Shown piece after piece: positions 14,418 to 64,000 of a DNA stretch of 64,000 bases. Under the pieces are notes generated by a model that was not told the origin of the DNA, made no database searches, and was given only the letters and a program-made list of their open reading frames with translations. The first letter of the stretch is position 1; each line of letters begins with the position of its first letter. The position numbers and the translations under genes were made by a program. The DNA comes from Novosphingobium sp. 28-62-57 (GTDB lineage Bacteria > Pseudomonadota > Alphaproteobacteria > Sphingomonadales > Sphingomonadaceae). Location: assembly GCA_002256985.1 (NCBI GenBank), contig NCGO01000004.1:124001-188000 (forward strand). Direction: 5' to 3'.

Positions 14418-14518
14418 CCCCCTCCTCTTCAGAGGAGGGGGTTGGGGGTGGTGGCGTTGTGCACCAAACTTGCGTGGCAAACACCACCCCCCGGCCCCCT
14501 CCTCTGAAGAGGAGGGGG
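14418..14518. repeat. Inverted REP pair (REPIN-like), first copy
   Basis: Two hairpins with 11-base arms CCCCCTCCTCT / AGAGGAGGGGG lie at 14418-14441 and 14495-14518. The sequences inside them (GGTTGGGGGTGGTG and CACCACCCCCCGGCC) are also roughly complementary, so the whole unit is one large nested inverted repeat, as in REPINs. Confidence 0.75.
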
Positions 14519-14592
14519 AGAAGGCTGGCCCATCTACGCCCCACACCCCCACACCCCACACCCCCACACCTTTGCAACCCCGCTCCCCCTGC

Positions 14593-14670
14593 GTCCCCGC
14601 GAAGGCGGGGACCTCGGTGGTGTTACGGAACGGTGATGTAAAACGCCTGAGGCCCCCGCCTGCGCGGGGG
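14593..14670. repeat. Inverted REP pair (REPIN-like), second copy
   Basis: Hairpins GTCCCCGC-GAAG-GCGGGGAC (14593-14612) and CCCCCGC-CTGC-GCGGGGG (14653-14670) face each other across about 40 bases, with complementary flanks (ACCTC and GAGGC). Confidence 0.65.
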
Positions 14671-14735: not shown

Positions 14736-16766
14736 TCACCCTGCAGGCGCGTCCGGGTAACTTTCCAGCACCGGCCCCAGCGCCGCCTTCAACGGCCCCA
14801 GCCATGGCTCATAGGGCTTCCACGCCTCCAGCCCATCCTTGAAGATTGGCTGGCGCACTTGTTCCGAACTGGCGGTGCGCACCGCGCGGTCATTGTTGTA
14901 GAATTCAAGGCATGCCGGTTCAAACGGCAGGACCAGATAATCCAACACGCGGCGCACTTCGGCTTCGGTATCGGCTACCACGCGTTCATAGATCACGCGG
15001 TGCACGGTGCCCGGCATCTGGGCGTCCCACGCCGCCATCATCCCCACGTAATCGCGATAATACTGCCCGATATCGGCCAGATCATACGTAAATGTCTGCC
15101 CGCGCGCGAAGTGTTGTTTCCAGCCGGAAAAGCAGCACGACAGCGGGTGCCGCCGCGCGTCCACGATCTTGGCATTGGGTAGGATCAGGTGGATCAGGCC
15201 CACGTGCTGCCAATTGTTGGGCATCTTATCGATGAACAGCGGCCGTTCGGTTTGCCGATGCACCCGTGTGCGCTCGATATACTCCTCGCCCAGCCGCGTG
15301 CGATCAGCGGGTGAAAGCGCGGCAATCATGCTGGTAAAGTCAGGAAATTCGCCTTCGTCCACCCGCGATTGCAGGCGCGCGGCGATCATCATCATCTCGG
15401 GCAATTCCATCGTGCCTTCGATGGCCGAATGGCTGGCCAGAATCTGCTCGACCAGCGTGGAGCCCGAACGCGGCAGGCCCACCACAAAGATCGGGTCCGG
15501 GGCAGGGCACCCGCCATCCCCCAACTGCGCGATGAAAGCGGCGGTAAACGTCGTTTGGGCAGCCTGCACTTCGGCGGAAAACGCATCCGCATCATGCCGG
15601 ATCATCGTGCGGCGCAGCGCATTGCCCTTGGCATAATGCGCAAATGAAGCCTCGTGGCTTTTGGCATCTTCCAGCGCCTTGCCGAGCGAGAAGTGCAGGT
15701 GGAAAATGTCCTCCCGGCGCGCTTCGTCTTTCGGATCGAGAGTTGCCAGCGCCGCTTCCATCGCGGCGATGTCGTCCGGCCCCAGCTTCACGGTTTTCAG
15801 ATTGGCCAGGCTCCACCACGCCTCGCCCATCGTTGCTTGCCGCGAAACGGCGGCGCGGTAGGCCTCGACCGCTTCGGCCTGCTCGCCCAGCGTTTTCAGC
15901 ACATGACCAAGGTTCTGCCAGACTTGCGGCTGGTCGGGCTGATCGGCCAGAAGGGCACGATAGAGTTCCGCCGCACGCTCCTGATGGCCCAGCCGCACCA
16001 GCACCGATGCCAGGATCAGCTTGTGCCCCGGCGCAGGGATCGGCGATTTCACCAGCATTTCAGCGTGAGCCAGTGCGTCTGCCAGCCGGTTGGTCTGCAA
16101 CAGCAGCCGGATCAGGAAATCGCGCGCCAGATCAAAACCGGGGGCCAGCGCGACCGCCTTTTCCACCCGCTCCAGCGCAGGCGTCATCTCCCCGCGCCGC
16201 CAGGCGATCTCGCCATAGAGTCGCAGGGCAGGGGCATCATCGGCATGGCGCGCCAGCCGCGCGGCCAGCAGAGCCTCTGCCGCGTCCAGATCACCCTCGT
16301 TCACCGCAACCGCTGCCTGCAGCAATTCCTTGTCGCGCGATGAGGCATGGATGCCGGAAAGATCGGCGCGCCATGCGTCCTGTTGCCGTTTCGCCTTGCG
16401 CAATTGCTGCGCCAGCAGGAACCAGCCCGAAGCCACCATCGGCTGCATCTGCGTCAGCGCTTCAAGCGCGGCGATGGCGCGCGGCGTATCGCCAAGGTCG
16501 CTGGCGACTTGCGCCAGTTCCCACAACACGGCGGGCACGCGCGCTCCGCTGCGGGCAAGCGCATCCAGCTTGCCCAGCGCCTGCCGCCCTTTGCCCATGC
16601 GCCGCAACGCGCGCGCGGCCAGAAACTCCGCCGGAGGAAAACCCGGCACTTGGCGCAACATCGCCTCAGCCTTGCCCAGCGCCAGATGAGGCTGCTTGTC
16701 CAGCAGTGCTTCAGCCTCGGCCATGGCCTGTGGCGGAATGGGGGGAGTGCGGGCCGGCTGGATCAT
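14736..16766 (-). CDS. TPR-repeat sulfotransferase
   Basis: 676 residues. Roughly residues 10-345 are tetratricopeptide-type helical repeats (for example LWELAQVASDLGDTPRAIAA and VWQNLGHVLKTLGEQAEAVE). The C-terminal 250 residues form a sulfotransferase domain with the PAPS 5'-phosphosulfate loop VVGLPRSGSTLVEQIL (428-443) and an RRHPLSCCFS segment matching the 3'-phosphate region. It should transfer sulfate from PAPS to an acceptor that the sequence does not reveal. There is no signal peptide, so it acts in the cytoplasm. It lies 74 bases downstream of the NADH dehydrogenase gene on the same strand. Confidence 0.88.
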   Translation of the reverse strand: MIQPARTPPIPPQAMAEAEALLDKQPHLALGKAEAMLRQVPGFPPAEFLAARALRRMGKGRQALGKLDALARSGARVPAVLWELAQVASDLGDTPRAIAALEALTQMQPMVASGWFLLAQQLRKAKRQQDAWRADLSGIHASSRDKELLQAAVAVNEGDLDAAEALLAARLARHADDAPALRLYGEIAWRRGEMTPALERVEKAVALAPGFDLARDFLIRLLLQTNRLADALAHAEMLVKSPIPAPGHKLILASVLVRLGHQERAAELYRALLADQPDQPQVWQNLGHVLKTLGEQAEAVEAYRAAVSRQATMGEAWWSLANLKTVKLGPDDIAAMEAALATLDPKDEARREDIFHLHFSLGKALEDAKSHEASFAHYAKGNALRRTMIRHDADAFSAEVQAAQTTFTAAFIAQLGDGGCPAPDPIFVVGLPRSGSTLVEQILASHSAIEGTMELPEMMMIAARLQSRVDEGEFPDFTSMIAALSPADRTRLGEEYIERTRVHRQTERPLFIDKMPNNWQHVGLIHLILPNAKIVDARRHPLSCCFSGWKQHFARGQTFTYDLADIGQYYRDYVGMMAAWDAQMPGTVHRVIYERVVADTEAEVRRVLDYLVLPFEPACLEFYNNDRAVRTASSEQVRQPIFKDGLEAWKPYEPWLGPLKAALGPVLESYPDAPAG

Positions 16767-26818: not shown

Positions 26819-26892
26819 GCGGGTGTAGCTCAATGGTAGAGCAGCAGCTTCCCAAGCTGAATACGAGGGTTCGATTCCCTTCACCCGCTCCA
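26819..26892 (+). tRNA. tRNA-Gly (anticodon CCC)
   Basis: A 74-base cloverleaf with acceptor GCGGGTG/CACCCGC, D arm GCTC...GAGC, anticodon loop TTCCCAA (anticodon CCC), T loop TTCGATT and encoded CCA. The prophage begins directly after it, so the 3' part is the probable attachment site. Confidence 0.96.
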
Positions 26893-49490: not shown

Positions 49491-51050
49491 TCACTGCACT
49501 CCTCTGAAAACATCGAACTCGCTGTCATTGCGCACTTGCCGCCCCGGCTCCCGGCGCGGCTTGCCCCTGATGTCCCGGATCACGTGTTCACCTTCCAGCG
49601 CGGCATATTGCTCGGCATCGGCCACGTGGGTGTAGATCGTGTTGGCAATCTCAAGGTGGCCCTTGGTTTCGCCCGTTTTCATGTCCTCTTTTTCGTAGCG
49701 GTATCCGCCCGAATGCGCCTTGATCAGGTGCCTGCATGATGGATCGACCTGATAGCCGTGGCGGGTTGATTGCGCGCGCCAGATGGCCTCGTTACGCAAT
49801 GCCGCCCGGTTGCTTTTGGCCTTGTGGATTTTGCCCAGCCCCAGCGCGGCCTGGCACGCCAGCACCCAGTCATGCTCGTTGTCTTCACGGTCCCCCGCCG
49901 CAAAAGCCGCAGGGTCGCAAACGAACCGGATTTCATCCTTCTCAATGCCCGGATATCGCTCGATAATCGCGTTGCGCAGCTTCCGGCCAAACGCGGTGGG
50001 CCCCACTTTCAGCAGCCGCTTGCGATCGTCCGAAAGGTTCACAACCTCAAACAGCGTGCGGATATTGCCGTATTCATCGCGCTGCAGGCCCACCGCCGCC
50101 GCAAACAGCCCCTGATCGATGCCCACAATCAGCTTGCGGCGCGGATTATACACGCACTGGCCCACATGCGCCGAATGCTGGAATTCGCCATTGACCGGCT
50201 TGCCGAACATCATCGCCACCGGCTTGTTGTGCACCATGCGGTCCACATATCCGGGCTTGTGCTTGTTCGCCGCCACCTGCAGCACGTAGTAACCGCGCCC
50301 ACCCGGCAGGTTGTGGATATTCTCCGCGTCCGGCTCCATGCCACCGGGCTGGATAAAGGTTTTCACCAGTGGCCGCCCGCCCAGCGCTTCGCTCAATTGC
50401 GCCTTGTCGTCCTCGGTCAGGCCCTCAATCTCGCGGTCCATCGCCAGCACATAGGCGTGGTTCTCGATATCAGGCATGTTCATCGAAATGATGATTTGCG
50501 GATCGACCACCAGATCGGGCGATAGGTCGGAAAATCGGCCCACACGGCCCGTCAGATACGGCACCAGGTCCGCAGGCTGAAGGTCAGCCTCGTCAACGAT
50601 AACCGCGTTGACTTCCCACCCACGGCAGGCCTCTTCCACCGTTTGGTCACCAATTGCGCGGAACTCGAATTCCACGTCCAGCACATCGATCGGTCGCCCT
50701 TCGCCATCGCGCCGCAGGATCTTGCGAAAGCTGTGCGTGAATGGCGCCGACCACAAGAATTTGCCCTCGTCTTCGGGCACGATGTTGAACCAGCTCTTGA
50801 GCGTGGTCGATTTCAGGCTTGGATAGCTTTCACGGATCACCCCAATGCGCGCCTTGCGCCACGTGATGCCGTTATCATCCTTCACCCCGCCCTGCATCGC
50901 GGCCACACGCAGGCCCTTCTGCAGCGCCGCCATGGTCTTGCCTGATCCCACAGGCCCGATGATGTTGCAGATGAAGGCCCTGCTGCGCGTGAACGCATCA
51001 GCGACCGGCCCCGGCGACCGCAACCGGCGCGGTTTGGACGGCATTTTCAT
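49491..51050 (-). CDS. Terminase large subunit
   Basis: 519 residues. The ATPase has Walker A GPVGSGKT (32-39) and Walker B VNAVIVDEAD (Asp153, Glu154). The nuclease domain begins with LIVGIDQG (Asp312) and includes RFVCDPAAFAAGDR. It cuts concatemers and drives DNA packaging. It overlaps the small subunit by four bases. Confidence 0.92.
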   Translation of the reverse strand: MKMPSKPRRLRSPGPVADAFTRSRAFICNIIGPVGSGKTMAALQKGLRVAAMQGGVKDDNGITWRKARIGVIRESYPSLKSTTLKSWFNIVPEDEGKFLWSAPFTHSFRKILRRDGEGRPIDVLDVEFEFRAIGDQTVEEACRGWEVNAVIVDEADLQPADLVPYLTGRVGRFSDLSPDLVVDPQIIISMNMPDIENHAYVLAMDREIEGLTEDDKAQLSEALGGRPLVKTFIQPGGMEPDAENIHNLPGGRGYYVLQVAANKHKPGYVDRMVHNKPVAMMFGKPVNGEFQHSAHVGQCVYNPRRKLIVGIDQGLFAAAVGLQRDEYGNIRTLFEVVNLSDDRKRLLKVGPTAFGRKLRNAIIERYPGIEKDEIRFVCDPAAFAAGDREDNEHDWVLACQAALGLGKIHKAKSNRAALRNEAIWRAQSTRHGYQVDPSCRHLIKAHSGGYRYEKEDMKTGETKGHLEIANTIYTHVADAEQYAALEGEHVIRDIRGKPRREPGRQVRNDSEFDVFRGVQ

Positions 51051-54927: not shown

Positions 54928-56880
54928 TCAAACCGCCGCCCCCGGATCTTGTGCCGCAATCTTGCTCCGCCATGCCGCCACGGCTTCGGGCAGGCTCTCT
55001 GCAGGCAATTCGGTTTGGTCCAAAATCTCGTGCAGCGGGATAAGCACCGCGCGGTATGCCTGCCGCGCCATTTTCACCGCCGCCACCTCGATGGCGCCAG
55101 GCACACGCACCAGCGTCTGCTTATAGACCCCGCCCTGCCACTTGGTGCCCCGGAACACTTCATCCAGCGCCACATGCTTGGCCGCAATCGCCACATAGCC
55201 CGGCCCGTCATGCGGCAGAAAACGCTCCACGCCCCACTTGCCGCTGGCCGCGTTCCACTTCGGGTTGACCAGCTTGAGCCCCAGCTGCTCGATCCAGTTG
55301 CGGTCTGCTGGCGTCAACTCGGATGGGTTAAGCGCAGTTGCCACCGCCTCACCAATCAATGACCCGATAACCTGCCGCTCGGCATTGCCGCGCGGCTGTG
55401 CAGCAGATGTCATCAAATGGCGCAGGCAGGTTTCCTGATCGCTCATCGCGTCGTTCACTTCGGCCATCTTGAACGGCGCGCATTCGTGCGCCCACCGTTC
55501 CACTTCCTCGTCGTCAGGCAGCTCGTGATCGGTCAGCACGTGCGCACAGGCCAGCAGCGTGCCAAACTGGTCGCAACCCCGGCTGTCATGGCCCTTTTTG
55601 GCCAGCGCCGCGTGAAACTTGGCCTTCACCTGGGCAAGGATTGGCCACATCTCGATCATGCGCCGCTGCAGCTTGCGCCCGATGTCCTCAAAATCGATGG
55701 CCTCAAAGTCGGGCGGAATCGTCCCGTCGGCAAAGGGCCGCAATTCCAGAATGGCCAACCGGCTGCGGTCGCTGGCCTCGATCGGCGGAATGTTGATCGA
55801 TGAAAACCAGAACGGCGATTGCAGCGTGAATTCGTGCGCCTGGTGATCCTGCCCACCGCGATGCACCTTGTCACCGGATGAACTGATCCGCGCCAGGTCG
55901 ATGATCTCGGTAACCTTGCGGTTGTCCGCGCTCGGCTCGATCTCGTCCAGCATCACCGGCACGGTCGAATTGCGCAACGATTGCCGCAGCGCCGCCGCCG
56001 ATGTCTGCCCCGTGCGGAACAGCGCCTCGCCATACATGCGCGGCACAATCCCCCGCCGCCCGTTCAGCGCGCTCTTGCCGGTGCCCCGGTCGCCGGTAAT
56101 CCACACATTGCTGCGCCAGGGCAGCGCCCCACCGATAAAGCCTTGGCCTATCGCCCCCAACAGCAACCGCACGTCCAGCTTGGGCCGCTTCCAGTTCCAG
56201 GTGCGCAGCAGCGCGATAACATCGGTCACCGGTTTAAGGCTGGTCGATTGGTGCCAGGGGTGCGGTATCGGCGCGCCAGCGGGATAGACGAACCGCTCAA
56301 ACAGGCCCGTATCTTCCCATTCCGGGGCCAGCAGCCCGCCTTTGGCCTTGGCGCGCAACACCAGCAACCGGTCGCCCAGGTGCAGCAGCAATCCGCCGCC
56401 CGTCAGCGCATGGGCACCACGCCCACGCAACCGGCCCGCCGGGTCGAATATCCCGCGCCGCACGCATTCCTCGATCATCGCGCGCGATGCCTTGGCTTGG
56501 TTAAAGCCGATGATTTCCGGCTTTTTGACCATCACCTTGTCGTTGCCACGGCCCTCAAAGACCGGTGCCGACCATTGCGGAAAATTCTCTTCCAGCCAGT
56601 TCGAATCCGGCCCGAACAGGTGGATCAGCGAATTCTTGCCATGCCGGTTCCCGGCTTCCAGCCCCACGATCTGGCCAAGCCGGTCAAGGTAATAGCACTT
56701 CTGGCTGCCATCCAGCCCCGCCGAAACCCCCAGCGGCTGCACCGGCGATCCGGGCGGGAAGGGCGGTCGCTCACCATTGCCGCGCTCAAAAAACGGGCCG
56801 GGGTCACCCGCCTCGGCCATATCCGGCGCACGCACAGGGTTATCCAGCGCGTCGGCAATCTCTTGCGCCGTGTCGCTCAT
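54928..56880 (-). CDS. Phage replicative helicase-like AAA ATPase
   Basis: 650 residues. Walker A GDRGTGKS (263-270) and Walker B VPVMLDEIE (Asp312, Glu313) lie in a domain followed by sensor-like segments (FWFSSINIPPIEASDRSRLA). The N-terminal 250 residues have no clear motif. It is the last gene of the leftward replication operon with the Toprim primase, so it probably unwinds DNA during replication. It overlaps the preceding gene by four bases. Confidence 0.75.
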   Translation of the reverse strand: MSDTAQEIADALDNPVRAPDMAEAGDPGPFFERGNGERPPFPPGSPVQPLGVSAGLDGSQKCYYLDRLGQIVGLEAGNRHGKNSLIHLFGPDSNWLEENFPQWSAPVFEGRGNDKVMVKKPEIIGFNQAKASRAMIEECVRRGIFDPAGRLRGRGAHALTGGGLLLHLGDRLLVLRAKAKGGLLAPEWEDTGLFERFVYPAGAPIPHPWHQSTSLKPVTDVIALLRTWNWKRPKLDVRLLLGAIGQGFIGGALPWRSNVWITGDRGTGKSALNGRRGIVPRMYGEALFRTGQTSAAALRQSLRNSTVPVMLDEIEPSADNRKVTEIIDLARISSSGDKVHRGGQDHQAHEFTLQSPFWFSSINIPPIEASDRSRLAILELRPFADGTIPPDFEAIDFEDIGRKLQRRMIEMWPILAQVKAKFHAALAKKGHDSRGCDQFGTLLACAHVLTDHELPDDEEVERWAHECAPFKMAEVNDAMSDQETCLRHLMTSAAQPRGNAERQVIGSLIGEAVATALNPSELTPADRNWIEQLGLKLVNPKWNAASGKWGVERFLPHDGPGYVAIAAKHVALDEVFRGTKWQGGVYKQTLVRVPGAIEVAAVKMARQAYRAVLIPLHEILDQTELPAESLPEAVAAWRSKIAAQDPGAAV

Positions 56881-57470
56881 TTGGCTTCCTCATAGGGTAA
56901 CTGGTGGTCACACCCGCGCCACCCCGGCACGCCGCACCGCACACAGGCCTCGCGCGATAGCGCCACCACGGTCGGCGCTGGCTTGGGCTTGGGCGGCGAC
57001 ACCTCCCGCATGCGCGCCGCATTGGCCACACGCCCCCAATCCACCGGCGCAGGGGCCTTGCGCACCATCACCGCCCTGCCGTCATGATCATGTGCGCGCG
57101 CCGATGGCGATGGGGCTGGCGGGGGGTCTCTACCTTCCACCGCCACCGGCACGCTGGCAGGCTGCACCGGCATGACTGCAGCCTGTTTCGATTCCGCAAC
57201 CGTCGCCCCGGACTTGATCCGGGGCTTGGCTTTGTCTTGCACCGGTTTCACCGGTTCCGGCTCACCCACCAAAATGGCTGGCGGCTTGGTTTTCTTTTCA
57301 ACCCGCTCACCCTGAGCCTGTCGAAGGGCCAGCGCTTCATCGCGCATAACCTCGGCCATCGTCCTGCTGCTGCGGTCTGGAAACGGCCCGGTATAGGCCC
57401 GCACCAAAGGCACAGGCCGCTTCTTCGCCCCCGCCTTGCGGTCAAACCCCCAGCGCAGCAACGCACTCAC
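56877..57470 (-). CDS. Hypothetical phage protein with inserted palindromic elements, 197 aa
   Basis: The C-terminal part has a CVRCGVPGWRGCDH cluster that may bind zinc. The middle is Pro/Lys-rich. Two segments, LRQAQGERV and [11 protein letters not shown], are encoded by palindromic repeats at 57309 and 57205 and look inserted rather than original. The gene overlaps both neighbours by four bases, so the frame is clearly in use. Function unknown. Confidence 0.65.
   Translation of the reverse strand: MSALLRWGFDRKAGAKKRPVPLVRAYTGPFPDRSSRTMAEVMRDEALALRQAQGERVEKKTKPPAILVGEPEPVKPVQDKAKPRIKSGATVAESKQAAVMPVQPASVPVAVEGRDPPPAPSPSARAHDHDGRAVMVRKAPAPVDWGRVANAARMREVSPPKPKPAPTVVALSREACVRCGVPGWRGCDHQLPYEEAK
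57205..57225. repeat. Palindromic element within coding frame
   Basis: GCCCCGGA-CTTGA-TCCGGGGC, eight-base arms with a five-base loop, inside the 197-residue gene, followed by TTGGCTT. Confidence 0.8.
57309..57329. repeat. Palindromic element within coding frame, second type
   Basis: ACCCTGAGCCTGTCGAAGGG, the same family as the element at about 14684-14706 outside the prophage (CCTGAGCTTGTCGAAGG). Confidence 0.65.
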
Positions 57471-57775
57471 GTGGCGGTGCCTCCAAAGATCGCGGTAAGC
57501 GAGGTTGCAACACTTTCATTCCACGACCGCCAATCCTTGACGATTTGTTCGCCAAGATTAGTCAACGTGTAGTATGGCATCGGATACGGACGCCCCTCTT
57601 CAAACAAAGAGACGCGCAACACAGCGCCATGCAATTCCAGCGCAGTAAATGTGCGGGCAGTGACTTTGGCAGCTTTGCAGGCAAGTGTCTGGTGAACAGG
57701 GCAGACGCGATCAAGCGCACACAATGCGCGAATTTGATGGTCGCTCCACTCGCTCCAATCGGCTGTACGCATCAC
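57467..57775 (-). CDS. Hypothetical phage protein, 102 aa
   Basis: Predicted helical N-terminus (WSDHQIRALCALDRVCPVHQ) and a winged-helix-like second half (ALELHGAVLRVSLFEEGRPY, YTLTNLGEQIVKDW). It may bind DNA. It lies between primase and the 197-residue gene with four-base overlaps. Confidence 0.6.
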   Translation of the reverse strand: MMRTADWSEWSDHQIRALCALDRVCPVHQTLACKAAKVTARTFTALELHGAVLRVSLFEEGRPYPMPYYTLTNLGEQIVKDWRSWNESVATSLTAIFGGTAT

Positions 57776-58854
57776 GCCGCCACCCCGCTTGCAGCCGTTC
57801 CCCGCAACCAGTCATTCACATCCTTGAACGGTGCAGGCGGCATCACCAGGCGCACATCCATGCCCCGCGCCTGCTGCTGCGCAATGCTGCGCTCCAGCGC
57901 CTCGATGGCCTTGGGCTTTTCGTCGCGGTCCGCCACAATCACGATGCGCCGCGCATTTTCCGGCAGCACGATCGCCCCGATATTGCCCAGCGATACAGCG
58001 GCAATCACCCGCAGTTCCGGCTTGATCATGCGGACGACAAGCGCGTCCTCGATGCCTTCGGTCACATAAACCGGCTCACCTTCGGGCATCTTCGCCATGC
58101 TCTTGCCGCTTGCGCCCTTGTTGATCGGCACAAACCCGCCCCACATCGCGCCCAGCACTTTCTTGGCGTTCTTCCCGTCGATCTTGGCCCACCCGCGCTG
58201 GCGGCAGATTTGCAGATACGTGCGGTGCACCGCCACCAGCTGGCCATCGGCGGTATAGATCGGGGCCAGCATCGCCGGGATCTTGCAGCGTTCGTCCTTG
58301 TTCCACACTTCGGCGTGGTATCGCAGGCATCCGGGCCATTCCTGCCCGTCGCGCAGATCGATGGCCCGCCCGCGCAGATATGCCGCTGCCGGTGTCCCGG
58401 CAATGTCCACGCCGGAAAGATACAGCCCGCGCGCCCGCCGCACCCGCACTTCGCGCTCGGCCGCCGCGTCCTCGTCGCGCTGGCGCTGCATCGCCGCCAG
58501 CTCCGCCGCCTTGCGCGCCATCGCTTCGGGGTCACTGCGCACCGCCGCAGGCGTCCAGGCATCCACAATGCCCAGCCTGTCCTTGGCCCAGCTGACCGCG
58601 CCCTTCTTGTCCAGCCCTTGCGTCTGCTGGATCAGGTCCAGCATGTCGCCATAATCGGTCCCGGCATAATCGCGCCAGGTCCCCTGCTTGGTCCCGCGCA
58701 GCTGCAACACCAGGCTGTCCCCGGCCTCGCCCATCACGGACCCGGCTTTCAGATAAGCCCCTTCCTTGTGCGCGCCGGGCAAAAGCTCTTTGCCAATGCT
58801 CTCGGCATTGTCGCGCAGCTTCTGCTCGATCTCGGCCACGGAAATCAGCGTCAT
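57772..58854 (-). CDS. Toprim-domain DNA primase
   Basis: 360 residues. The Toprim motif is clear: VYVTEGIEDAL (Glu266, Glu269) and IVIVADRDEK (Asp309, Asp311). The N-terminal region (LVLQLRGTKQGTWRDYAGTD, then DMLDLIQQTQG) is the domain usual in phage primases of this group; no zinc ribbon is evident. It should lay primers for phage DNA synthesis with the helicase encoded downstream. Confidence 0.87.
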   Translation of the reverse strand: MTLISVAEIEQKLRDNAESIGKELLPGAHKEGAYLKAGSVMGEAGDSLVLQLRGTKQGTWRDYAGTDYGDMLDLIQQTQGLDKKGAVSWAKDRLGIVDAWTPAAVRSDPEAMARKAAELAAMQRQRDEDAAAEREVRVRRARGLYLSGVDIAGTPAAAYLRGRAIDLRDGQEWPGCLRYHAEVWNKDERCKIPAMLAPIYTADGQLVAVHRTYLQICRQRGWAKIDGKNAKKVLGAMWGGFVPINKGASGKSMAKMPEGEPVYVTEGIEDALVVRMIKPELRVIAAVSLGNIGAIVLPENARRIVIVADRDEKPKAIEALERSIAQQQARGMDVRLVMPPAPFKDVNDWLRGTAASGVAA

Positions 58855-59207
58855 GGCCGACCCCCAAGAACCGTCGCCCCGTGCTCGACACGGGGCTTGG
58901 CTTCCCCTTCCCCGTTCGTGTCGAGCCCCTCGACTCGCTCGGGATAAACTGCGGGCGAAGCGCCCGCAGTCGAGACACCGGCATGCGCCCCGTCCAACAC
59001 ATCACAAACGTTCAGAATATCCCGCGCCATCTGCCGCGCACGATCAACCGTCAGTTCCGTCCTGTGCCCCTCGCACGATATCCACACGCGCCATTCGGCA
59101 CCCTCGCGCCGCCCCGCCACAATCGGCAACACGCGGCTATCAGGCACCACATCACCATCGATCACGATCATCGCAGGCCGACAGGGAAGGGCACCCTCGC
59201 CAGACAT
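58851..59207 (-). CDS. Hypothetical phage protein with inserted palindromic elements, 118 aa
   Basis: The N-terminal 75 residues (ILPIV-like core: RVWISCEGHRTELTVDRARQ) look like the original protein. The C-terminal third (YPERVEGLDTNGEGEAKP, then RVEHGATV) is encoded by palindromes at 58876-58896 and 58910-58979. Overlaps the primase start by four bases. Function unknown. Confidence 0.6.
   Translation of the reverse strand: MSGEGALPCRPAMIVIDGDVVPDSRVLPIVAGRREGAEWRVWISCEGHRTELTVDRARQMARDILNVCDVLDGAHAGVSTAGASPAVYPERVEGLDTNGEGEAKPRVEHGATVLGGRP
58876..58896. repeat. Palindromic element within coding frame, covarying stem
   Basis: GCCCCGTG-CTCGA-CACGGGGC, same layout and flank (CGTC before, TTGGCTT after) as at 57205 but with paired changes in the stem. 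Confidence 0.8.
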
Positions 59208-59432
59208 TCAGGCGGCGTCCCTGCAAATAGCGTCGGGGAAAAACACGTCTGCGGATAACCCGGTGACTGTGCGCACCTTTGGCATGAAGCTGGCATCGGG
59301 CCTGCGCCGCCCGCGTTCCCAAGCGGACCAAACCTGTCGCGTTGTCCCCACCATTCTGGCAGCATCTTCCAGCGTCAAACCCTTGGTTTCGCGCCACTTT
59401 CGAAGGGGGTGGATTTTCGCCTCTCGCGTCAT
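59208..59432 (-). CDS. Cro-like helix-turn-helix regulator
   Basis: 74 residues from the ATG at 59432 (an in-frame start at 59468 lies beyond the operator). An XRE-type helix-turn-helix covers about residues 10-62 (LTLEDAARMVGTTRQVWSAW). It is the first gene of the leftward replication operon and divergent from the repressor gene, as cro is to cI. A possible promoter (TTGTCA at 59463-59468, TACAAG at 59439-59444 on the minus strand) would start the mRNA close to the ATG. Confidence 0.75.
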   Translation of the reverse strand: MTREAKIHPLRKWRETKGLTLEDAARMVGTTRQVWSAWERGRRRPDASFMPKVRTVTGLSADVFFPDAICRDAA

Positions 59433-59440
59433 GACGGTCT

Positions 59441-59459
59441 TGTAAGCGATTTGGTTACA
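59441..59459. promoter_or_regulatory. Switch operator, copy 1
   Basis: TGTAAGCGATTTGGTTACA, an imperfect 19-base inverted repeat lying between the two divergent HTH genes and over the leftward promoter. Confidence 0.75.
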
Positions 59460-59497
59460 TCTTGACAAGTCCGAGTATGGGATTCAGGCACTAGGCT

Positions 59498-59890
59498 ATG
59501 TCAGCGGATATCTTACACTTCGGCGCTATGGACCAAGCGCCCAATCGCATCAGAGAGTTACGCCTCGAAGCGGGCTTGTCTCAGCAGTCGCTGGGCGATG
59601 CCGTTGGCGTGTCAAAGATGACGATATCAGATCTTGAGCGCGGCAACATGGTTCTCACCTTGGACTACATGCGTCGGATCGCGCGTGCCCTGGGCGTGAA
59701 TGCCGCCGATATCTTGCCACCGGAAGATAACCCGGAGGCCTTGTCGATCGAAGAGCGCCAGCTGATCGACCAGTACCGCGCCGCCGATGAAGGCCAGCGC
59801 GAGCAATTGCAGAAAGTGGCGGACGTGCTGGCTCCCTTCCGCCACACACCCTATGTCGCGCAGGTCAAGCCGCGCCGCCGTCGCGCATGA
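59498..59890 (+). CDS. CI-like XRE-family repressor
   Basis: 130 residues. A helix-turn-helix domain at about 17-72 (LSQQSLGDAVGVSKMTISDL) is followed by an acidic C-terminal helix region (SIEERQLIDQYRAADEGQRE). No LexA-type peptidase Ser-Lys dyad is seen, so induction by RecA cleavage is unlikely. An ATG at 59528 is an alternative start. It is divergent from the Cro-like gene and flanked by three similar operators, the layout of a lysis-lysogeny switch. Confidence 0.8.
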   Translation: MSADILHFGAMDQAPNRIRELRLEAGLSQQSLGDAVGVSKMTISDLERGNMVLTLDYMRRIARALGVNAADILPPEDNPEALSIEERQLIDQYRAADEGQREQLQKVADVLAPFRHTPYVAQVKPRRRRA

Positions 59891-60171
59891 TCGATACTGT
59901 CGGCCGATTTATGGCTGGCATCACATCGGTTGCCTTGACTCTGGCGCTCGTCGCCGCTTCGGCTTGGCTGATGTCAAAGGTCATGGCGCGCATACCCGAA
60001 CAGCGAACCGAAAACCGCGAGCTTGCCCTTGGTTGCACCATTTGGCTGGCGTTCTTCCTGCTGCTGGGTTTGCTTTTTTGGCCTTCCATTCACGTCCTCA
60101 AATCTTACTCTTGCGGCAAGGCAGAGGATTACGAACTTTGCATGGACCCGCCTGAGAGTGACCCCATGTAA
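59887..60171 (+). CDS. Two-span membrane protein coupled to the repressor
   Basis: 94 residues with two hydrophobic segments (ITSVALTLALVAASAWLM and TIWLAFFLLLGLLFWPSI) and a short polar tail with two Cys. It overlaps the repressor stop by four bases, so it is likely expressed in the lysogen. Such genes often act in superinfection exclusion; that is inference from place and topology. Operator copy 2 overlaps its end. Confidence 0.6.
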   Translation: MIDTVGRFMAGITSVALTLALVAASAWLMSKVMARIPEQRTENRELALGCTIWLAFFLLLGLLFWPSIHVLKSYSCGKAEDYELCMDPPESDPM

Positions 60172-60185
60172 TCGCATCGCTTACA
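60167..60185. promoter_or_regulatory. Switch operator, copy 2
   Basis: TGTAATCGCATCGCTTACA; its reverse complement TGTAAGCGATGCGATTACA aligns closely with copy 1. Confidence 0.75.
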
Positions 60186-60192
60186 TTTGCGC

Positions 60193-60220
60193 TTGACGAT
60201 GTAAGCAATTCGCATACATA
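60193..60220 (+). promoter_or_regulatory. Rightward early promoter with operator copy 3
   Basis: TTGACG (60193-60198) and TACATA (60215-60220) with a 16-base spacer. Operator copy 3, TGTAAGCAATTCGCATACA (60200-60218), fills the spacer. Copies 2 and 3 are 33 bases apart centre to centre. Confidence 0.65.
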
Positions 60221-60251
60221 TGGCTCCCGTTGAAACCAACGGAGGCCCATC

Positions 60252-60614
60252 ATGGCATCGCGTGTTTTTGCGGCGGATGAACCGGCGCAGCCCACTTGCA
60301 CTTTCGGTTATGTTCAGGGCCTGCTGGGCCAGAACAAGCTCACCCCGCGCCGCATGGCGCAATATCTCACCGCGCTGATCGAACAGCACGGCTTCCCCGC
60401 ACCGCTTCCCGCGCTGGTGAAGGGCGGCACGCTGACAACCGGCGTGCATCCGCGCTCCACATGGATCCGCGCCGCCGTTCACGCCTGGCTCGATGGCACG
60501 CTGCCCCCGCCAATCGCCGCCACGCTCGATCAGCAGGCCTTCGCCGCCGCCGCCATGGACATGGACGCCCGCGCCGCCACGCTCCGGCTTGTCGGTGGAA
60601 GAGACGTGGCATGA
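60252..60614 (+). CDS. First gene of rightward early operon, 120 aa
   Basis: GGAGG precedes the ATG. The protein (LTPRRMAQYLTALIEQHGFP, GVHPRSTWIRAAVHAWLDG) may carry a small helix-turn-helix fold of the excisionase/AlpA sort. No firm family. Direct control by the operators upstream is expected. Confidence 0.6.
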   Translation: MASRVFAADEPAQPTCTFGYVQGLLGQNKLTPRRMAQYLTALIEQHGFPAPLPALVKGGTLTTGVHPRSTWIRAAVHAWLDGTLPPPIAATLDQQAFAAAAMDMDARAATLRLVGGRDVA

Positions 60615-60952
60615 TCGCCGCCACCAACCCCTTCCTCGGCCTGTCCACGCCGCTCACCCCCATGGGCTATTTCGCGGGCGATCATGGCCCCATGGTCCGC
60701 GTGGAATCCAATGCCGGCCGCATCATGGAAGTGCCCGCCGCGCTCCCGGCAGAAAGCCTGAAAGCGCTTTGCGGTGGCACATCATGGCTGTCTGGCCAGT
60801 TCCCCGATGTGGTCACCCGCCGCAGCTATGATCCGCACGCCAGCACGATCAGCCCCGGCTTTTGCCAGATGCGCGCCGCCCGCGCGCTCATCGATGCGTG
60901 TCAGCATGCCGAACAGGTCCGTGCCCAGCGCCGAAAAGGCGCACCGGCATGA
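60611..60952 (+). CDS. Hypothetical phage protein, 113 aa
   Basis: Starts at the ATG that overlaps the preceding stop (ATGA). Contains MEVPAALPAESLKALCGGTS and DPHASTISPGFCQMRAARAL. No family recognised. Confidence 0.6.
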   Translation: MIAATNPFLGLSTPLTPMGYFAGDHGPMVRVESNAGRIMEVPAALPAESLKALCGGTSWLSGQFPDVVTRRSYDPHASTISPGFCQMRAARALIDACQHAEQVRAQRRKGAPA

Positions 60953-61119
60953 CCCCCCGCTCACGCACCGCGCGCACCATCCAGCGGCTTGACCGCGCGA
61001 TCGATGCCTTTATGCGCGCCGCGCTCGTCGTGCCGCCTGCCGCCGCTTTCATCGCATGGGTCATTGCCTTGCTCATGGCCATTCAGGCTCTGCCGTACAT
61101 TCCGGGGCTGGGGTCATGA
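60949..61119 (+). CDS. Small single-span membrane protein, 56 aa
   Basis: ATGA overlaps at both ends. A basic N-terminus (TPRSRTARTIQRLDRAIDAF) is followed by one hydrophobic span (PPAAAFIAWVIALLMAIQAL). Function unknown. Confidence 0.6.
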   Translation: MTPRSRTARTIQRLDRAIDAFMRAALVVPPAAAFIAWVIALLMAIQALPYIPGLGS

Positions 61120-61346
61120 CAGTTGCGGCCCTCACACTCACCCGCACCGGCCACAATTTCCACCGCGTGCGCCGCCCGGTCGAACGCTTGGTGCAACAGA
61201 TCTTGAACGAATGCCGCGATGTCGAAGCGCAGGCCTTGCTCAACCTGCTGGAAAGCCACCAGCAGCAACGCGCCTCGCTCACCACCTATCACGATAGCCT
61301 GCAGCGCGCCCTGAAAAGCGCTGATCACGCGCAGGCCGCAGCATGA
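61116..61346 (+). CDS. Hypothetical phage protein, 76 aa, helical
   Basis: ATGA overlap with the preceding gene. Helical, with LVQQILNECRDVEAQALLNL and repeated Gln. No family recognised. Confidence 0.6.
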   Translation: MTVAALTLTRTGHNFHRVRRPVERLVQQILNECRDVEAQALLNLLESHQQQRASLTTYHDSLQRALKSADHAQAAA

Positions 61347-61684
61347 TGTCCCGGTCTTCTCCCCCTGCCGGACACACTCCGTCCGAGTCGTCTTGCGAAA
61401 CGGCAGGGGGAGGGGACACGCGCGCGCAAGACTTTGTGCCCGTCGCCGCGATGGAAGCCATGCTGCAGATCCGTCATCAGCAGATCCACCAGTTCGGCCA
61501 CACGCTCGAAGCTGATCGCGCCCGCCCCACGCTCGATTGGGCCCGCGATATCGAAAACGCCGCCCGCGCCATCTTGGAAGACGCGCAATTCAACAAACCG
61601 GCAGACCGCCTGCGCCGCCGCGCCATAAAGCTCGGCGCACTGCTCATGGCCTTCGCCGATAAACTCGAAGGGGAAGTCCAGTGA
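61343..61684 (+). CDS. Hypothetical phage protein with inserted hairpin, 113 aa
   Basis: ATGA overlap. The first 30 residues (SSPPAGHTPSESSCETAGGG) are encoded by a long inverted repeat and look inserted. The remainder is helical (AMLQIRHQQIHQFGHTLEAD, RRRAIKLGALLMAFADKLEG). No family recognised. Confidence 0.6.
   Translation: MMSRSSPPAGHTPSESSCETAGGGDTRAQDFVPVAAMEAMLQIRHQQIHQFGHTLEADRARPTLDWARDIENAARAILEDAQFNKPADRLRRRAIKLGALLMAFADKLEGEVQ
61359..61412. repeat. 12-base inverted repeat in the 5' part of a phage gene
   Basis: CTCCCCCTGCCG (61359-61370) and CGGCAGGGGGAG (61401-61412) enclose 30 bases, with GTCCC and GGGAC near the outer ends. Confidence 0.75.
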
Positions 61685-61992
61685 CCAATCCCGAACGGCG
61701 CAAGTTTCAGAAGGAACGCGGCTTCGATCCTGATCTTGATGTCAGCAACCCCGGTTGCCTGATCTATGATGGCACGCACTATTGCGCCGCCACCGAAAGC
61801 CGCGTGGTCAGCCGTGGCTCCACCATCATCATCTTGTTCTCGATCGGCGGAAAAGGCCTTGCCATCCACCTCACGCCCGAAGGCGCGCGGCAGATGGGCG
61901 AAGATCTTGTCCGCATCGCTGAAACCGTCGGCGCCACTCACGCCGCCGCCGCCAACGCCCAACTCGCCGCCACGCTGGCAAAGAAAGGCTAA
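61681..61992 (+). CDS. Hypothetical phage protein, 103 aa
   Basis: Begins with GTG overlapping the preceding stop. Contains ESRVVSRGSTIIILFSIGGK and a helical Ala-rich C-terminus. No family recognised. Confidence 0.6.
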   Translation: MTNPERRKFQKERGFDPDLDVSNPGCLIYDGTHYCAATESRVVSRGSTIIILFSIGGKGLAIHLTPEGARQMGEDLVRIAETVGATHAAAANAQLAATLAKKG

Positions 61993-61996
61993 ACCC

Positions 61997-62245
61997 ATGC
62001 GCAACCACTTCCGCGCCCACTATCTGTCACTGGCCAAATCGTCCGAAAATGCGGAACCAGCGCCGCCACAAAGTGGCCCGGACTGGTCCGAAGACTTCCC
62101 GCTCGATGTGCCAGATTATGATTGGCCCGATGCACCAGACCCGCGCGTAAACGATCTCGATCGCCACTTCGCCTGGGGCTGGATGGCCCTCTGCGCCGTG
62201 ATCACCCTCGCCAGCCTAACCTACCTGATCGCGCAAACCCTGTGA
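61997..62245 (+). CDS. Hypothetical phage protein with C-terminal membrane span, 82 aa
   Basis: An acidic, Pro/Asp/Trp-rich N-terminal part (DFPLDVPDYDWPDAPDPRVN) precedes one C-terminal span (ALCAVITLASLTYLIAQTL), so the protein is probably tail-anchored. It starts four bases after the preceding gene. Confidence 0.6.
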   Translation: MRNHFRAHYLSLAKSSENAEPAPPQSGPDWSEDFPLDVPDYDWPDAPDPRVNDLDRHFAWGWMALCAVITLASLTYLIAQTL

Positions 62246-62439
62246 AAACGCCCGCCCCGTTCGTGTCGAGCGAAGTCGAGACACCGCCCCTTACCGTCAC
62301 CCCGGACTTGATCCGGGGTCCCGCTTCATTTTGCAGCGATTGCGGCACAGAGGCGGAATGCGACAACGCAACAGAGCTTTGCTTTGACTGCTTTTGCCTG
62401 ACCTTCCCCGCATCCGGCGAGGAAGACTTTCAGCCATGA
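62242..62439 (+). CDS. Small Cys-rich phage protein with repeat-derived N-terminus, 65 aa
   Basis: GTG start overlaps the preceding stop. CSDC near residue 33 and CFDC near residue 48, with additional Cys, may form a zinc site. About the first 28 residues (PFVSSEVETP, VTPDLIRGPA) come from two palindromic repeats. Four-base overlaps on both sides support translation. Confidence 0.6.
   Translation: MKTPAPFVSSEVETPPLTVTPDLIRGPASFCSDCGTEAECDNATELCFDCFCLTFPASGEEDFQP
62299..62319. repeat. Palindromic element within coding frame
   Basis: ACCCCGGA-CTTGA-TCCGGGGT; the outer G-C pair of other copies is an A-T pair here. A second palindrome (GTGTCGAGCGAAGTCGAGACAC) lies just upstream at 62262-62285. 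Confidence 0.8.
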
Positions 62440-63161
62440 AGCAAAACCGCTCCACCGCCGTCATGCAGCGCCGCATCGAACCGCACGATAGCCTGGAATA
62501 CTTTCCCACCCCGCCTTGGGCCACCCGCGCAGTGTGTGAATTGCTGCAGGCCGAATATGCCGAACCGCTGGAACTGCAGCGCGCGTGGGAGCCGTGCTGT
62601 GGGGAATTGCACATGGTCCGCCCGATGCGGGAATACTTTGCGCAGGTCCATGCCACCGATGTGCACCGCTATGCGCAGGACCACGGCATTTTCGATTTCC
62701 TCGATCTTGGCGCAGCCCCGCCTGTCCTCGATGTCGATTGGATCTTCCTCAACCCGCCGTTCCTGCCCGCGCACCGCTTCATCGATCGCGCGCGCACCAT
62801 CGCCCGGCGCGGCGTGGCCGTCTTCGCCCGCGCCGCATTCACCGAATCCGAAAGCCGCTATGCCGGCCTGTTTTCCCCGGATCAGCGCCCCGCTTGCGTT
62901 GCCACGTTCTGCGAACGTGTCGTGCTGCTCAAAGGCCGCCTGATCGAACGCAACCGCCCCGATCCGTTCAACCTGGACGAGGACGGCAAGCCAAAGAGCG
63001 CCAGCAGCGCCACCGCCTATTGCTGGATCATCTGGCGGCGCGACGATCACGATACCCGCCACCGCTGGATTGCCCCCGGCACATCTGACCGCCTCACCCG
63101 TCCGGGCGATTACCCGGACTACTCCCACCACTTCCCCGAACCGAAAGGATCCTTGCTGTGA
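62436..63161 (+). CDS. DNA N6-adenine methyltransferase-like protein
   Basis: 241 residues from the ATG at 62436 (ATGA overlap). SAM-binding motif I is WEPCCGELHM (51-60) and catalytic motif IV is NPPF (106-109), typical of adenine methyltransferases. SLEYFPTPPWATR near the N-terminus is typical of phage Dam-like enzymes. No target-recognition domain is evident. It may protect phage DNA from host restriction. Confidence 0.8.
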   Translation: MKQNRSTAVMQRRIEPHDSLEYFPTPPWATRAVCELLQAEYAEPLELQRAWEPCCGELHMVRPMREYFAQVHATDVHRYAQDHGIFDFLDLGAAPPVLDVDWIFLNPPFLPAHRFIDRARTIARRGVAVFARAAFTESESRYAGLFSPDQRPACVATFCERVVLLKGRLIERNRPDPFNLDEDGKPKSASSATAYCWIIWRRDDHDTRHRWIAPGTSDRLTRPGDYPDYSHHFPEPKGSLL

Positions 63162-63457
63162 CCGACCAACCCAAAGTTCCTTTGACCGTTGACGAAGCGG
63201 TTGGCCTGTTCAAATCGCAGGATTCTGCGCATTCGATAAACGTCATTGGCCCCATGATCATGGGCTTTGAATGGTCGATTGGCGGCGCGCGCGAAAAGCT
63301 TGCCGAATGCACCGACCTTCAGGTCGCTGGCGACACAGCGCGGGGCATGGGCCACGGCATCGCCGCAACCGAACCCGACGGCCAATTCATCTTCTTCGAG
63401 CATGACGAAGACGCCCTGACGGCATTCCTTTTGGAACGCACCGGAGCGCCAGCATGA
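63158..63457 (+). CDS. Hypothetical phage protein, 99 aa
   Basis: GTG start overlapping the methyltransferase stop. Contains [20 protein letters not shown] and [20 protein letters not shown]. No family recognised. Confidence 0.6.
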
Positions 63458-63612
63458 AAGCCACCCCACCCACCGTCGCCCCGGACTTGATCCGGGGCAA
63501 GGCTCCTTCTGGCGACACGATCGAACACTTGCGCGGCGGGCCAACCGGCCAGCCCAAAGTCACCCGCGTGTCCCTCACCGCCCTGCGCAACCGCAAAGGC
63601 CCGCGCACATGA
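63454..63612 (+). CDS. Tiny phage gene with repeat-derived segment, 52 aa
   Basis: Too short for common gene callers but linked to both neighbours by ATGA overlaps. [12 protein letters not shown] near the N-terminus is encoded by a palindromic element; the C-terminus is basic ([17 protein letters not shown]). Function unknown. Confidence 0.55.
63478..63498. repeat. Palindromic element within coding frame
   Basis: GCCCCGGA-CTTGA-TCCGGGGC, identical to the copy at 57205, in the 52-residue gene. Confidence 0.8.
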
Positions 63613-63956
63613 CCACCCGCCTAACCATCAGCGTGGCCGAAGCCCTCGAAGCCGAAGGCGCATTCGTCAACCGCAGCAAGGCACCGCGCCTGACAGCTGG
63701 CATCGGCGACAACTCCTACACCAACGGAAACGCCGATGACCGCCTGCGCCTGCTGATCGAACGCATCGAGCGCCTGGAGGAAGAGAAAAAGGGCATCGGC
63801 GATGACATCAAGGATGTCTACGGCGAAGCCAAAGCCGTGGGCTACGACACCAAAATGATGCGCCAGGCCATCCGCCTGCGCAAAATGAAACCCGACGATC
63901 GCCGCGAAATGGAAGCGATCCTCGAAGTCTACAAAGCCGCGCTGGGGATCGATTGA
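63609..63956 (+). CDS. GapR-like DNA-binding protein (DUF2312)
   Basis: 115 residues. The C-terminal 70 residues ([20 protein letters not shown], then [19 protein letters not shown]) match the GapR family, coiled-coil proteins that bind overtwisted AT-rich DNA ahead of replication and transcription. A 40-residue N-terminal extension is unlike chromosomal GapR. Last gene visible in the rightward early operon. Confidence 0.85.
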
Positions 63957-63972
63957 CCACCCCTTTCCGTCG

Positions 63973-63991
63973 TCCCGGACTTGATCCGGGA
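63973..63991. repeat. Palindromic element, intergenic copy
   Basis: TCCCGGA-CTTGA-TCCGGGA, a seven-base-arm copy of the same family after the GapR-like gene. Confidence 0.75.
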
Positions 63992-64000
63992 TTAGGCTTT

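Follow-up and report, generated by a model that had tools for sequence, protein, structure and literature searches.

CGTC-tagged palindromic repeats of the host type in the early genes of a Novosphingobium prophage

Background

Repetitive extragenic palindromic (REP) elements that carry the tetranucleotide CGTC at one end are described, in the accessible text of the survey by Di Nocera, De Gregorio and Rocco (2013, PMC3733652; the source of all statements on REP superfamilies below), as hairpins with stems of 8-9 bp and loops of 4-5 bases that are mostly found as head-head dimers, have no transposase of their own, are sometimes intragenic and include the Rickettsia palindromic elements RPE-4 and RPE-6; how these elements move was left open in that survey. 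Here we analyze five short palindromes located in a prophage within a 64,000-nucleotide stretch of the genome of Novosphingobium sp. 28-62-57 (contig NCGO01000004.1, positions 124,001 to 188,000; hereinafter, the window). These palindromes are CGTC-tagged REPs, that is, short palindromes of the host genome, non-coding and non-autonomous, which very probably inserted into the resident prophage at tolerant sites.

Two other described systems invite comparison. The GTAG-type REPs and REPINs are likewise short, high-copy, paired palindromes but bear the GTAG tag and flank the gene of a REP-associated tyrosine transposase (RAYT), whereas the present repeats carry CGTC, and no cognate Y1 transposase was found for them. 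The Rickettsia palindromic elements (RPE-4, RPE-6, RPE-1), with which the first-pass annotation compared the hairpins, are a good analogy, given that RPE-4 and RPE-6 belong to the same CGTC-tagged superfamily, for which intragenic copies have been described; like them, four of the five copies analyzed here apparently lie in frame within open reading frames (ORFs), two of which look like orphans. In contrast, Rickettsia palindromic elements are 100-150 bp long, often occupy the same site in orthologues (accessible text of PMC3767692) and occur in Rickettsia or Wolbachia, whereas the repeats in Novosphingobium are about 30 bp long and are absent from most related prophages. Papers describing CGTC REPs in phages were not encountered in the literature searched: the main text of PMC3733652 uses neither "phage" nor "prophage", and in the accessible text of PMC12306157 "phage" appears once, in the reference list. 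Neither the repeat family nor its intragenic habit is new; finding it in a phage is less familiar.

A host repeat family within the prophage

A palindrome scan recovered all five hairpins with arms of 7-8 bases and the loop CTTGA or CTCGA that had been reported in the first pass, at the same positions:

57205-57225, + strand: copy 1 (tagged element 57201..57230), arms of 8, loop of 5 (CTTGA), GGA/TCC type; inside the ORF at 56877-57470 (- strand)
58876-58896, + strand: copy 2 (element 58872..58901), arms of 8, loop of 5 (CTCGA), GTG/CAC type; in the C-terminal tail of the ORF at 58851-59207 (- strand), encoding approximately KPRVEHGATV
62299-62319, + strand: copy 3 (element 62295..62324), arms of 8, loop CTTGA, GGA/TCC type with an A-T outer pair; near the N terminus of the ORF at 62242-62439 (+ strand), encoding approximately TPDLIRGP
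63478-63498, + strand: copy 4 (element 63474..63503), arms of 8, loop CTTGA, GGA/TCC type; at about codons 8-15 of the ORF at 63454-63612 (+ strand), encoding approximately APDLIRGK
63973-63991, + strand: copy 5 (element 63968..63996), arms of 7 plus an outer G-T pair, loop CTTGA, GGA/TCC type; intergenic, 3' of a GapR-like gene and followed by a T run

All five stems are perfect, the loop is CTTGA in four copies and CTCGA in one (58876), and CGTC immediately precedes the stem in every case, always on the + strand. If transcribed, each hairpin is predicted to fold with an energy of -15 to -19 kcal/mol.

A genome-wide search with a degenerate pattern yielded 41 matches (25 + 16) in the 4.1-Mb genome, 36 of them beyond the prophage, compared to none for the reversed pattern, and the exact core CCGGACTTGATCCGG occurs 19 times (control, 0). 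Given these counts, the five hairpins are not chance occurrences. The CGTC tag is present in 33 of the 34 classified host copies (GTC itself is set by the search pattern), and 16 of the 36 host copies form eight +/- pairs spaced by 56-119 bp, compared to none of the five prophage copies (counting exact-pattern partners only). The core was found in 28 of the 61 genomes examined, the present one included, and in the listed places often forms +/- pairs 50-90 bp apart; another member of the genus, G028, is richer, with 86 exact core copies.

We assign these repeats to the CGTC-tagged REPs because the tag, the 8-bp stem and the 5-base loop match the published description; shared as well are the dispersed host copies, the +/- pairs in the host, the alphaproteobacterial setting, the intragenic location of some copies and the lack of a dedicated transposase. 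Four of the prophage copies have the stem and loop lengths given for the superfamily, and the fifth has a 7-bp stem plus a G-T pair. The presence of A-T at both the first and the second stem pair, which is a near-rule in the survey and not part of the definition of the superfamily, is seen in only 5 of the 41 copies; five of the 12 distinct forms have an A-T outer pair, and two have T-A as the second pair. Unlike typical CGTC REPs, the prophage copies are all single, in one orientation and in phage genes.

The CGTC-tagged family is about 14-fold denser in the prophage than expected from the host rate (a post hoc estimate), and among three repeat families represented in the prophage, this enrichment is specific to the tagged one. 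Classification of copies as coding or intergenic covered 39 of the 41 (34 host and 5 prophage copies; the pair C35:294599/294660 was omitted). We do not rely on the resulting contrast: when the prophage copies are called by context, 4 of 5 are coding vs 2 of 34 in the host (Fisher p 0.0009), and with the same automatic cut applied to both, 2 of 5 vs 2 of 34 (p 0.07).

The paired stem changes pointed out in the first pass are retained across the repeat family. Over the 12 distinct 24-mers, 97.9% of the cells pair, vs 22-57% when the alignment is slid, and 13 cells show a double change vs 4.1 in shuffles, a value reached by 0 of 500 shuffles; counted per stem pair, the contrast is less marked, with a double change in 4 pairs vs 2.3 in shuffles, a value reached by 47 of 500. 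What is not borne out is the origin of these changes within the prophage. The GGA/TCC, GGG/CCC and GTG/CAC inner-stem types and both outer pairs are each represented by several host copies; the variants are subfamilies already present in the host and, therefore, compensatory evolution inside the prophage is rejected.

The prophage and its relatives

The prophage spans 41,170 bp at a tRNA-Gly(CCC) gene and is bounded by a 44-bp direct repeat. Besides the genes listed here, it codes for a second primase-like protein, assigned by its match to a DNA-primase family, and for a methyltransferase-like one.

26849..26892, + strand: attL, the 44-bp direct repeat, at the 3' end of tRNA-Gly(CCC) (26819-26892)
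57772..58854, - strand: phage primase (Toprim_3, DUF7146), the probe used to find related prophages
L020:3919-5220: integrase
L020:5476-5519 (67975 in extended window coordinates): attR, the other copy of the 44-bp repeat

We compared 14 related prophage regions of 14-18 kb each (L024, L080-L085, L260-L266). The degenerate pattern is missing from 13 of these, so the inserts are not conserved in all homologues. The only region with the pattern, L261, also contains a second copy with a mutated loop, and both copies lie before the integrase of that prophage, among relatives of the early genes of the window (L289). The repeat family is present in 5 of the 14 host genomes, including the L261 host; the other nine genomes lack it, and the regions from those nine have none. 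With respect to the phage genome, all seven copies in the two prophages (five here, two in L261/L289) point in the same direction (sign probability 0.016, two-sided, calculated by hand and post hoc, with one of the seven copies loop-mutated). In L241, the gene before the methyltransferase abuts it; by eye, the window has 190 bp at this junction, including two repeats.

A primase-based search for close viral relatives gave three candidate stretches, none of which was confirmed; the second primase-like protein retrieved one viral relative per collection, with the same DNA in both. The host genus is that of Novosphingobium rosa, whose record L024 is identical (100%) over 4089 bp to a locus of the same-genus genome G029.

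Reading frames that carry the repeats

The proposal of the first pass that four copies lie in coding frames holds in that all four are in plausible ORFs, and in each of these the stated frame outscores the other five for coding potential, albeit at modest values (0.08-0.11 per codon); at 62299, this applies to the ORF that starts from GTG at 62242, the longest version (105 amino acids, from TTG) scoring negative. The four ORFs are:

56877..57470, - strand: 197 amino acids; the N-terminal WGFDRKAG..RPVPLVR and a C-terminal Cys motif recur in relatives, and the variable middle contains two repeats
58851..59207, - strand: 118 amino acids; the stop overlaps the primase start (ATGA), and the C-terminal tail of about 40 residues consists largely of repeats
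62242..62439, + strand: 65 amino acids, Cys-rich; two repeats at the N terminus, no homologue found
63454..63612, + strand: 52 amino acids; one repeat at the N terminus, no homologue found

Two more host repeat families, overlooked in the first pass, are represented in the same genes:

57310-57329, - strand: second family, core CTTCGACARGCTCAG, in the ORF at 56877-57470, encoding approximately LRQAQGERV
62260-62284, + strand: third family, TTCGTGTCGAGCN5CGAGACAC, in the ORF at 62242-62439, encoding approximately FVSSEVET
58915-58978, + strand: longer variant hairpin resembling the third family (assigned by eye), in the C-terminal tail of the ORF at 58851-59207

The two larger proteins have likely relatives in related prophages, and their repeats lie either in a variable linker or in an extra tail at the C terminus. 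The N-terminal part of the 197-residue protein has relatives in L265, L266 and L262 (tblastn E 1e-9 to 4e-7), and the part with the Cys motif in L085 (E 1e-8). The 118-residue protein matches a protein of L080 (E 1.4e-4 plus synteny) that ends where the repeat tail starts; by eye, the small ORFs preceding the primase in L261 and L024 are tail-less as well. For the 65- and 52-residue ORFs, no homologue was detected in the phage collection, and the weak matches in genomes all overlap the repeat-derived part; their overlap with both neighbors would favor translation.

A reading of the open frames as a sign of selection is not supported: four to six of the six frames through each repeat type are free of stops, so tolerance is to be expected and intact frames are weak evidence of selection. 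In the survey, hypothetical proteins shorter than 120 amino acids were excluded from the intragenic counts as probably spurious; three of the four repeat-bearing ORFs (118, 65 and 52 amino acids) fall below this length. The case suggests that small phage proteins can acquire new tails and N termini from host repeats.

Origin of the repeats in the prophage

Insertion of the host CGTC REPs into the resident prophage, which we regard as the explanation with high probability, builds on the features of the family, the host copies, the higher density in the prophage, the absence from most related regions and the positions relative to the ORFs. Copies of the host repeat would insert into the replication/accessory end of the integrated prophage, most likely during lysogeny in the present or a former host, and the insertion would be carried out by an enzyme acting in trans. 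The inserted repeats would then persist in a near-neutral fashion because of where they landed (gene junctions, protein ends or a variable linker) and because stops are absent from most frames that cross them. A local effect of the hairpins on transcript ends or stability is possible.

Several observations weigh against insertion of host repeats. The excess in the prophage (5 copies observed vs 0.36 expected from the other 36; Poisson 4e-5) was calculated for a region picked for holding repeats, and a factor of about 100 should be allowed for. The two commoner families, with 145 (CTTCGACARGCTCAG core) and 163 (third family) matches in the genome, are not enriched, with one exact prophage copy each vs 1.46 and 1.64 expected; therefore, long residence alone fails to explain the excess. 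Of the five hosts among the 14 that bear the repeat, four lack it in the prophage region, and L080, from a host without the pattern, has a CTTGA-loop hairpin at 15542 whose arms differ and which is not immediately preceded by the tag. No nucleotide-level empty site was found, the 14 regions sharing only 38-63% primase identity, so that insertion is deduced from protein alignment and synteny; the closest relative of the methyltransferase, in L240 (87% protein identity), has a different upstream gene. In L260, the counterpart of the 118-residue protein ends in an unrelated, repeat-free tail of about 37 residues, and that of L265 has a few extra residues (both by eye). The tblastn searches with small proteins were run with composition correction off against small databases, and meaningless L081 matches reached about 1e-4 with the 197-residue query; therefore, synteny bears part of the weight. 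Finally, no cognate transposase was found for the tagged repeats in searches for the Y1 type.

Insertion of host repeats does not account for the common orientation of all 7 copies in two prophages, nor for an enrichment confined to one of the three families. It is conceivable, if rather unlikely, that the early region of phage DNA, whether resident or replicating, is a preferred target of CGTC REPs and receives them in a single orientation; if this were true, it would point to a replication-coupled, single-strand-directed mechanism for these repeats. Given that prophages are gained and lost, and that some of their relatives contain inserts while others do not, they could trap recent insertions, and such traps could yield exact element ends and target sites.

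Among the alternatives, the one to be taken most seriously, although we consider it the less probable course of events, is a narrower version of host-repeat insertion, in which the prophage arrived with all its repeats, acquired in a previous host rich in them, and has added none in the current one. The density of about 14 times that of the host, confined to the CGTC-tagged family, is in line with such a history, and richer members of the genus, such as G028, do exist; however, the prophage subtypes, except for the exact 63973 form, are present in the current host chromosome, as are the two other repeat families. Selection for the repeats as phage regulatory hairpins (terminators, attenuators or mRNA stabilizers) at operon joints appears improbable. 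The hairpins are predicted to be stable, several are at gene ends or joints, the one at 63973 was picked up by a terminator scan, and the mutated-loop copy of L261 lies 5 bases past the stop of a small ORF found in place of g81 (49 bases in the window), a correspondence based on position and a hydrophobic C terminus only, with no tblastn match. Nevertheless, the number of terminator-like sites in L020:1-3000 (3) matches the average of shuffles (2.9), the hairpins at 57205 and 58876 are antisense to their genes, and nearly all related regions do without the pattern. A terminator role was rejected on the strength of that scan, and a structured RNA given the lack of any Rfam match within 56800-64000.

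Mobilization by a RAYT, with a host Y1 (HUH) transposase moving the repeats as REPINs, seems the least plausible of these possibilities. RAYTs are thought to mobilize GTAG-type REPs, and the genome contains one Y1_Tnp gene (L023:1-2200, G000:C38), but this gene, the only one found, lies amid several copies of an unrelated repeat, GAATTACGGTGACACTTTACTAAAT, and seven of nine copy-rich genomes (nine searched out of the ten others with at least 10 exact cores) have no Y1_Tnp match, so that RAYT mobilization is not supported. The lack of a Y1 transposase linked to the repeats agrees with the survey, which reports CGTC REPs without a transposase association. The Y1_Tnp gene amid the GAATTACGGTGACACTTTACTAAAT copies resembles the REPtron or TIRtron layouts of that survey.

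Additional observations

The palindrome also occurs in viral sequences. At least 120 stretches of viral contigs contain the exact 19-mer (none in a control with the same arms and an altered loop); among the viral matches listed (80 loci), CGTC is found within 6 bases upstream in only 34 of 91 exact 19-mers and, for this reason, these matches are not counted as REPs. Among the same matches (L086-L165), AGCCTG precedes the palindrome in 11 and GAGGAAG follows it in 8. A 36-base query matched eight entries in a collection of phage records, none over 80% of the query; three records of the Pseudomonas phages KPP23 and RSP have a 21-bp exact match to the palindrome and loop (58% of the query), two of them with no feature at the site and the third without annotation. 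In G058, the core forms same-direction arrays of 10 and 5 copies (L286:1196-4670 and L287:1606-4030), in which several copies are 93-96 or 142-145 bp apart with conserved spacers, an arrangement that differs from the usual +/- pairs.

Within the prophage, a GapR-like DNA-binding protein (PF10073; 63609-63956) adjoins two of the repeats and has a tblastn relative in 10 of the 14 related regions. A 519-residue protein (49491-51050) is about 71% identical in L024, L081 and L083 and has no PHROG or Pfam match at E 0.001; judging from its motifs, it resembles a terminase large subunit. Outside the prophage, positions 14418-14612 of the window contain two CCCCCTCCTCT..AGAGGAGGGGG hairpins together with GTCCCCGCGAAGGCGGGGAC.

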